A stretch of DNA of 48,048 bases, from assembly GCA_017446045.1 (NCBI GenBank), contig JAFSRP010000002.1, positions 1 through 48,048 on the forward strand. Direction: 5' to 3'. Below, piece after piece: positions 35,006-36,554 of the stretch; the stretch's first letter is position 1, and the number at the start of each line of letters is the position of its first letter. This stretch comes from Lachnospiraceae bacterium (GTDB lineage Bacteria; Bacillota; Clostridia; Lachnospirales; Lachnospiraceae). The position numbers and the translations under genes were made by a program. The notes under the pieces were generated by a model that did no database searches, had not been told where the DNA came from, and saw only the letters and a program-made list of their open reading frames with translations.

Positions 35006-35767
35006 TCAGCTGTTCAGATCGAGATGGACCCGGTTTTCCTGTTTGGAAAGCGAGAAGTGGCAGATGCTGCCCGGGAGCAGATGCCGCGCGTAGCAAAGAG
35101 GCTGCCCGTCCTGCAGAAACAGGAATGACCGCACTTCAAACATGGGGTCTCCTGCACGCATATTCAGGAGTTTCGCCTCCTGCTCGCCCGCAAGCGTGAC
35201 ATACAGGATATAGTTCTTGACCCAGATATCGGATGCGTCAAAGGCGGTCCCTTCTAATACTGCCTGACGCAGCGGGATATTTTCAAGATTCCTGTTGAGA
35301 AGGAAATGATATCTGTTCGCCGGAAAATAGACTTTCTCCAATTTACTGGGAACAGACGCGGCGTAGCTGAGCCGTTCGATATAGATGACCTGCTCTTCCT
35401 TTGCAAGCTGCAGATCACGCGCGAGCTGCTGCGTCGGAGGCATGATCTTTGATGTTACTATGTGGGTATATACCGGGATATTGCTTTGCTCGCACTGATC
35501 CTCAAAAGTGCGGAACATCTCGTGCGTTTTGTGGTCTGCCTGGTCGGTGACAAAGGAGCCCTTGCCATGATGCTTGGTGACAAGGCCTTCATCTACCAGT
35601 ATCTGGATCGCGTTGCGTACTGTGATGCGGCTGACGCCGAATTTTTCACAGAATCCTGCCTCACTTGGCAACAGCTGGCCGGGCTGGTATTCCCCCGAAC
35701 GGATCTTTTCCCGGACGTAATCAACGATCTGCTGGTACAATGGAGTAGCGATATTCTTATTAAGCAT
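35006..35767 (-). CDS. GntR-family regulator, HutC subfamily (UTRA domain)
   Basis: A roughly 253-residue transcription factor. Residues 5-75 form the GntR winged helix (TPLYQQIVDYVREKIRSGEYQPGQLLPSEAGFCEKFGVSRITVRNAIQ...GSFV), and residues 95-240 a UTRA effector domain (VIYIERLSY, KVYFPANRYHFLL). HutC-type regulators sense sugar phosphates or other small ligands. Two ATGs are adjacent (35770, 35767); GGAG has 6 bases to the second, which is chosen. A perfect 10-3-10 palindrome lies in its leader, so it probably represses itself. The divergent Nudix gene may also be under its control, but no second operator copy is obvious at that promoter. Effector unknown. Confidence 0.93.
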   Translation of the reverse strand: MLNKNIATPLYQQIVDYVREKIRSGEYQPGQLLPSEAGFCEKFGVSRITVRNAIQILVDEGLVTKHHGKGSFVTDQADHKTHEMFRTFEDQCEQSNIPVYTHIVTSKIMPPTQQLARDLQLAKEEQVIYIERLSYAASVPSKLEKVYFPANRYHFLLNRNLENIPLRQAVLEGTAFDASDIWVKNYILYVTLAGEQEAKLLNMRAGDPMFEVRSFLFLQDGQPLCYARHLLPGSICHFSLSKQENRVHLDLNS

Positions 35768-35790
35768 CATGATCTCCTCAAAATAATAAA

Positions 35791-35813
35791 TTGTAAATAT
35801 GTAATATTTACAA
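35791..35813. promoter_or_regulatory. Candidate GntR operator (perfect palindrome)
   Basis: TTGTAAATAT (35791-35800) and its exact complement ATATTTACAA (35804-35813) flank a 3-base centre. It lies about 20 bases upstream of the gntR start and just downstream of its predicted transcription start, an ideal site for autorepression by a dimeric winged-helix protein. Confidence 0.7.
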
Positions 35814-35828
35814 CCTCTATATATTTAC

Positions 35829-35858
35829 ATTATAGTACAAAAGTATAAGTTATTACAA
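35829..35858 (-). promoter_or_regulatory. gntR promoter
   Basis: On the minus strand: TTGTAA (35858-35853), 18-base spacer and a perfect TATAAT (35834-35829). The predicted start near 35822 places the palindrome at about +10 to +30. Confidence 0.65.
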
Positions 35859-35924
35859 GTGAAATCAGAACCGCTTTATCATCAAAGATTTTAAATATAT
35901 TATAAATAAATTTGATAACAAATG

Positions 35925-35972
35925 TGGCACGGAACGCCAATGAAAAAATTGGCACGTTTCGTGCCATTTTTT
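35925..35972 (+). terminator. Orphan terminator-like hairpin between gntR and Nudix promoters
   Basis: TGGCACG-TTT-CGTGCCA (35950-35966) forms a 7-bp stem followed by six Ts, a classical terminator. A second TGGCACG...CCAAT copy (35925-35941) can instead pair with the whole 3' part, giving a longer hairpin. No plus-strand gene lies directly upstream, so it may end a small RNA or form an attenuator. Confidence 0.6.
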
Positions 35973-35995
35973 GTGACGAACATGTCATTGACATC

Positions 35996-36024
35996 TTGAA
36001 GTGATGCTGTAATAGAGATATAAT
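35996..36024 (+). promoter_or_regulatory. Nudix gene promoter
   Basis: TTGAAG (35996-36001), a 17-base spacer and TATAAT (36019-36024). The predicted start near 36031 gives a leader of about 86 bases to ATG 36117. A TTGACA at 35988-35993 is nearby but wrongly spaced. Confidence 0.65.
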
Positions 36025-36055
36025 TAATTCAAATTTGTGTGAGATATCGGGTGAT

Positions 36056-36109
36056 TCCGGCAGGGGATACCGCGAAAGCGGGGTGGACCTGCCGGATACG
36101 AGAGGCAGG
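36056..36109 (+). promoter_or_regulatory. Structured Nudix leader with two exclusive stems
   Basis: TCCGGCAGG (36056-36064) pairs perfectly with CCTGCCGGA (36088-36096), enclosing an inner CCGC-GAAA-GCGG hairpin. The CCTGCC of the 3' arm can instead pair with GGCAGG at 36104-36109, next to the start codon and overlapping the putative ribosome binding site AGGGA. The two pairings exclude each other, as in translational riboswitches. No known riboswitch class was recognised. Confidence 0.55.
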
Positions 36110-36116
36110 GATCTTT

Positions 36117-36554
36117 ATGATCGAAGCGGTGAGTTGCGGCGGTATCGTCATATATCGGGGCAAGGTATTGCTGCTTTATAAAAACTACAAAAACAGATAT
36201 GAGGGCTGGGTAATGCCCAAGGGAACGGTGGAAGACGGCGAGTCGCACGAAGAGACCGCATTGCGGGAGGTGAAGGAGGAGACCGGTGCCGATGCCGAGA
36301 TCATGGAATACATCGGCAGTAATTCCTATTCATTTATGGTTCCCGAGGACAAGGTCGAAAAGGAAGTGCACTGGTACCTGATGAAGGGCAGGTCTTATTA
36401 TTCGAGACCTCAGACAGAGGAGTATTTCAGGGACAGTGGATTCTATAAGTACCATGAGGCGATCCATCTGCTCAAATTCCCCAATGAGCGGGAGATGCTC
36501 GAAAAGGCATGGCCCGTATACCAGCGGCTGCGCCGTGAGGGAAGCTGGACATGA
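36117..36554 (+). CDS. Nudix hydrolase
   Basis: A 145-residue Nudix hydrolase, cleaving a nucleoside diphosphate linked to another moiety. The Nudix box is complete: G-TVEDG-E-SHEETA-L-REVKEETG (GX5EX7REUXEEXGU), with WVMPKG just before it. N-terminal SCGGIVIYRGKVLLLYKNY is typical of small ADP-ribose/Ap4A-type members. ATG 36117 is chosen: MIEAVSCGGIVIY is the family start and AGGGA lies 5-6 bases upstream; a longer frame from GTG 36039 would translate the structured leader, which looks like RNA structure rather than protein. It is divergent from gntR and monocistronic, with a terminator. Substrate unknown. Confidence 0.92.
   Translation: MIEAVSCGGIVIYRGKVLLLYKNYKNRYEGWVMPKGTVEDGESHEETALREVKEETGADAEIMEYIGSNSYSFMVPEDKVEKEVHWYLMKGRSYYSRPQTEEYFRDSGFYKYHEAIHLLKFPNEREMLEKAWPVYQRLRREGSWT

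Follow-up and report, generated by a model that had tools for sequence, protein, structure and literature searches.

The leader of a Nudix hydrolase gene in a Lachnospiraceae genome carries a repeat, its complement and the repeat again in an order that could open or close the ribosome binding site, which raises the question of whether the gene is under a translational switch or merely follows an ordinary hairpin. We analysed this leader in the window, a 48,048-nucleotide stretch of a genome whose nearest named relatives are uncultured Lachnospiraceae, two of them Candidatus Avilachnospira. A preliminary description had seen in the arrangement the logic of a translational switch and, possibly, a riboswitch. 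Our analysis indicates that the leader is structured and fast-diverging, and that it is probably a lineage-specific 5′ untranslated hairpin with a constitutively translated Nudix gene, a masking helix that is a minor state and no sensing of a ligand.

Repeat and anti-repeat upstream of the Nudix gene

Two copies of GGCAGG, at 36059–36064 and 36104–36109, lie on either side of CCTGCC at 36088–36093 (Table 1). Reading the letters directly confirmed every position given earlier for the repeats, the anti-sequence, the 9-bp stem and the inner hairpin, and the repeat copy overlapping the Shine–Dalgarno (SD) sequence and its anti-sequence are both real. In the minimum-energy fold, the inner hairpin stretch pairs slightly differently. 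The ribosome binding region forms a calculated duplex of −17.6 kcal/mol with the 3′ end of 16S rRNA. The encoded protein is nearest in the PDB to the Ap4A hydrolase 3i7u (4.1e-22) and to Ndx1 (1vc8, 2.3e-18). The promoter-like site would start the transcript near 36031. Because this site stands just upstream, the frame from GTG 36039 is broken in a sister species and the codons upstream of the ATG are dissimilar among relatives, 36031–36116 is very likely an untranslated leader.

Table 1. Features of the Nudix locus in window coordinates
Feature	Position	Strand	Basis or remark
GntR/UTRA regulator gene, divergent	starts 35770	−	open reading frame and Pfam
Promoter-like site TTGAAG-17-TATAAT	35996–36024	+	consensus scan
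Untranslated leader of the Nudix mRNA (very likely), 86 nt	36031–36116	+	putative transcript start to ATG 36117
Stem A, 5′ arm TCCGGCAGG	36056–36064	+	contains GGCAGG, the SD-like copy; perfect 9-bp complement of 36088–36096
Inner hairpin CCGC-GAAA-GCGG	36070–36081	+	read directly
Stem A, 3′ arm CCTGCCGGA	36088–36096	+	CCTGCC at 36088–36093 is a possible anti-SD
Ribosome binding region AGAGGCAGGGATC	36101–36113	+	GGCAGG at 36104–36109 could pair with 36088–36093 (stem B, 6 bp)
Nudix hydrolase gene, 145 aa	36117–36554	+	Pfam NUDIX, 7.2e-19

Of 20,000 dinucleotide-preserving shuffles of 36031–36119, 32 contained an exact 6-mer followed by its reverse complement and the same 6-mer, and 68 contained a perfect 9-bp stem. 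The 101 nt of 36025–36125 fold with a z score of −3.14, equalled by 1 of 200 shuffles. Across the window, 82 of 9,592 overlapping 89-nt stretches contain the exact 6-mer arrangement; by our own count from the listed positions they correspond to about 15 separate places including the Nudix leader. The arrangement is real and unusual for a single leader, but chance alone would supply similar examples in a genome-wide scan.

The leader also stands out within its own genome. We selected 116 leaders mechanically from 203.6 kb (open reading frames of at least 100 codons with an ATG and an SD-like motif), a procedure that sets some starts wrongly. The Nudix leader has the top competing-helix score, 14.2, followed at 14.1 by one such mis-called start that lies within a coding sequence, and it is one of five of the 116 leaders with a shuffle p of 0.02 or less. 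Among 59 mostly intergenic leaders of the same genome, its folding z score of −4.1 is the lowest.

The intergenic DNA further upstream holds features of its own. A perfect 10-bp inverted repeat, TTGTAAATAT/ATATTTACAA, occupies 35791–35813 beside the point where the divergent GntR/UTRA gene starts, and a further copy of ATATTTACA lies nearby at 35821–35829. Between 35920 and 35972 is a terminator-like hairpin, TGGCACG-TTT-CGTGCCA, readable from either strand. A second GGCACG copy ahead of the hairpin could pair with its CGTGCC in competition, and most of this feature falls in sequence without alignment to the nearest relative, G016.

The predicted fold leaves the ribosome binding site open

Letters and constrained folds agree that two mutually exclusive pairings are present, one of which masks the SD, and to that extent the earlier switch logic stands. 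Its predicted equilibrium is one-sided. Over 36031–36125, the pair probability is 0.99996 for stem A and 2e-5 for stem B, and the constrained ensembles lie at −36.4 and −29.9 kcal/mol, a gap of 6.5. When 30 nt of coding sequence are added, the probabilities become 0.985 and 0.009, and the ensembles −43.4 and −40.7 kcal/mol, a gap of 2.7. With stem A ahead by 2.7–6.5 kcal/mol, the ribosome site should be open by default, provided that the energy parameters are sound and no protein interferes. Stem A has already formed in full when the first 68 nt of the putative transcript are folded, a length at which the SD has yet to be made.

A potential small hairpin, GATC-TTTAT-GATC (36110–36122), encloses the start codon at 36117. 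It appears in the fold of 36025–36125 and in folds of at least 100 nt, and is missing from folds of 84 and 92 nt.

The leader diverges rapidly within the genus and family

Of the 25 genomes of the genus, 21 have a close Nudix homologue; G001, G012 and G024 have distant matches only, and G013 has none. Searching these 25 genomes at the DNA level with 35980–36125 returned, beyond the window, only short matches at chance level and, in G016, a 56-bp match to the promoter end, so that the leader lacks conservation apart from its two ends, and those in one relative. For comparison of leaders we took the best 80 of 569 loci, comprising 18 from the same genus and 62 others; two of the 20 relatives in the genus that have a close Nudix homologue, G008 and G018, are not among them. 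The mean folding z score is −0.93 in the 18 same-genus relatives and −0.03 in the 62 others, against −0.51 in the 116 leaders of the window's genome. By eye, the other Nudix leaders are unlike that of the window. Several in the same genus (L042–L058, in the 86 nt before the start) have small hairpins of their own, unlike the window's, with z scores of about −3 in L044 and L049.

Competing helices are likewise no general property of these leaders. With the last 22 nt held fixed and the remainder shuffled, the median p is 0.25 in the 18 same-genus relatives, of which only G016 reaches p ≤ 0.05, about the number expected by chance; in the 62 further relatives the median is 0.52, and 2 of 62 reach that level. 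An apparent excess of 14 of 81 leaders over 3.4 expected, obtained with the SD also shuffled and G–U pairs counted, was set aside because such shuffling destroys the SD; this figure also counts the near-identical L068, L069, L072, L078 and L093 separately and required four G/C in the SD segment, which omitted G016.

Covariance models gave a similar picture. When a model built from the window (R2) was run on the window and the 80 relatives, an unrelated place beyond the Nudix gene of L096 scored higher (15.4 bits) than the leader of G016, which reached 15.1 bits (E 1.2); the E-value for G016 is 0.0008 when 211 nt are searched. In 299 family genomes, drawn evenly under stricter filters and including just one other genome of the same genus, R2 found no convincing second copy: apart from the window, its one match (G202, 30.5 bits) falls within a large coding sequence. 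A model built from the window and G016 (R3) recovered in the 25 genus genomes these two, by construction, and four matches with E of 0.3–0.92 in G022, G005 and G012, none of them at the listed Nudix places. A repeated or mobile element was considered and rejected: the window's own genome holds short matches only and no second copy.

Pairing in the sister species

A translational switch limited to two sister species, those of the window and G016, is possible but unproven, and we rate it as a minority prospect. In such a switch the TGCC segment would pair either upstream, leaving the SD open, or with the SD itself, masking it, and the balance would be shifted by temperature, a metabolite or a factor acting in trans. 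G016 is the nearest relative of the window's genome, its Nudix protein being 91% identical. In window coordinates, the aligned pieces are about 35469–35860 (76%), 35974–36037 (79%) and 36103–36552 (84%); of the two stretches between them that fail to align, one is the leader. The other, the intergenic stretch 35861–35973, aligns no better, so divergence in the leader resembles that of other non-coding DNA. When the last 20 nt are left off, the G016 leader shares 34 of 79 identical columns with the window, a score reached by 86 of 500 shuffles; with the SD end included, none of 500 shuffles aligns as well, and the SD region GGCAGGGAT is kept.

Several signs in G016 fit selection on pairing. The order of SD-like copy, anti-SD and SD, exact in the window, is similar in G016 with different flanking pairs: a GGCR/TGCC/GGCA core stands in order at aligned positions (there GGC(G)...TGCC...GGCA). 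Of 81 leaders, only those of the window and G016 show this pattern, which was written post hoc. Six of eight scorable stem A pairs form in G016, three unchanged, one changed on one side and two changed on both; of the nine pairs of stem A, two are unpaired and one is gapped. Stem B keeps its four core pairs, with one lost, one gapped and none changed on both sides. Over both helices of the window structure, 8 of 12 scorable pairs form. G016 also has competing helices in its own sequence: when it was shuffled with the SD held constant, 1 of 200 shuffles equalled the best of them, as for the window, and the two states stand at 0.90 and 0.10, their ensembles within 1.3 kcal/mol.

Counting the window together with G016, 84% of cells pair, compared with 32–46% when the alignment is slid; the cells that the window contributes are, however, bound to fit the true register best, since the structure is its own. 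With two sequences, this pairing is reached by 24 of 500 shuffles and, against a switch, the covariation score by 113 of 500. The competing helices of G016 lie in a different register from its aligned stem A, so these two signs do not describe one structure. The rarity of the competing-helix signal among same-genus relatives, the dominance of stem A in the window and the lack of a shared aptamer-like sequence also speak against a switch. Because covariation cannot be shown with two sequences, the likeness of G016 is a hint. A bolder version, to which we give distinctly less credence, would be a young, fast-evolving switch of an Ap4A-hydrolase-like Nudix gene, confined to a pair of sister species in an uncultured genus of Lachnospiraceae; compensating changes would keep its pairs while the sequence drifts, and it may sense a nucleotide.

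Alternative readings of the leader

The same letters could serve as DNA or as protein-coding sequence. As DNA, TCCGGCAGG-N23-CCTGCCGGA is a perfect inverted repeat too, to which a protein might bind downstream of the promoter, and a divergent GntR-type regulator gene lies upstream. A 23-nt spacer is, however, long for a dimeric operator, the window's own genome has only chance-level short matches elsewhere, and the palindrome TTGTAAATAT/ATATTTACAA beside the GntR gene is the better candidate and likely an operator; we regard an operator in the Nudix leader as very unlikely. The preliminary description had cautioned that the region might be coding if GTG 36039 were the start of the Nudix protein, and this frame is indeed open from 36039 to 36554. 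That GTG would nevertheless lie only about 8 nt from the putative transcript start, and G016 has an in-frame stop within the 26 codons before its ATG. These 26 codons are free of stops in 18 of 81 leaders, counting the window, and the 19 compared by eye are dissimilar. An ATG stands at the aligned start in 80 of 81 loci, the gene of L059 starting one codon later, and the Nudix proteins of the 18 same-genus relatives all begin MIEA, after 26 preceding codons that differ by eye. With the frame broken and the upstream codons without similarity, we rejected a coding extension as highly implausible.

A known riboswitch class fares worst, and we consider it scarcely credible. Its appeal lies in gene context: PMC7266159 describes ykkC subtype 2c RNAs, which respond to nucleoside diphosphates, as preceding and regulating NUDIX genes, and on this point the preliminary description was correct. 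At gathering thresholds, Rfam has no match in the window, which contradicts this and any other Rfam class; a permissive search of 35770–36250 gave 15 matches, all under their gathering scores. In 40 of the 80 named relatives, Rfam returned a single match, a Clostridiales-1 small RNA (RF01699, 92 bits) at L061:1257–1434 on the minus strand in Lachnospiraceae bacterium NK4A179, opposite in strand to the Nudix gene and 66 bp before its start. A new class would call for an aptamer whose sequence and structure are both shared between species, and we found none in the 25 genus and 299 family genomes. Our literature search found nothing on Nudix riboswitches in Lachnospiraceae or on Avilachnospira riboswitches. 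Given the empty Rfam result, a leader that relatives do not share, no convincing copy in the 299 family genomes and the one-sided equilibrium, a riboswitch, whether known or a different motif, is not supported.

Discussion

Since the open form is by far the preferred one in the predicted fold and the relatives lack the sequence, we read the leader as an ordinary lineage-specific hairpin rather than a proven riboswitch. Transcription would start near 36031 and, once polymerase had passed 36096, the 9-bp GC-rich stem A would close ahead of synthesis of the SD, capturing the CCTGCC that could otherwise mask it. The SD near 36104–36109 would thus stay open and the Nudix gene would be translated constitutively, with masking stem B a minor state and no ligand sensed; the hairpin would at most insulate the ribosome site or slow 5′ decay. 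Evidence against such a constitutive hairpin comes from the lowest folding z score among the 59 leaders, the top competing-helix score among the 116 and the pairing signals in G016.

If the leader is just a default-open hairpin, it is ordinary, and its lesson is that a repeat, anti-repeat and repeat over an SD arise by chance often enough to make a test of conservation necessary ahead of any claim for a switch. Should the signal in the sister species be true, it would represent a switch selected for structure, not sequence, over short times, of a kind that homology-based RNA searches would miss.

Among known systems, the ykkC subtype 2c nucleoside diphosphate riboswitch (PMC7266159) resembles the window leader in standing upstream of a Nudix gene. 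The window leader differs in having no Rfam match. Translational control through the order of SD-like copy, anti-SD and SD is familiar from riboswitch expression platforms, and the window shares this order of three segments, with an SD-like sequence repeated upstream; it differs in that it has no shared aptamer, is conserved at most in one sister species and has one state strongly favoured. Hairpins at the 5′ end can stabilise or insulate an mRNA, and the window likewise carries a strong hairpin near the 5′ end, with the SD free in the predicted fold; it differs in that stem A begins about 25 nt from the putative transcript start, and any effect on stability is hypothetical.
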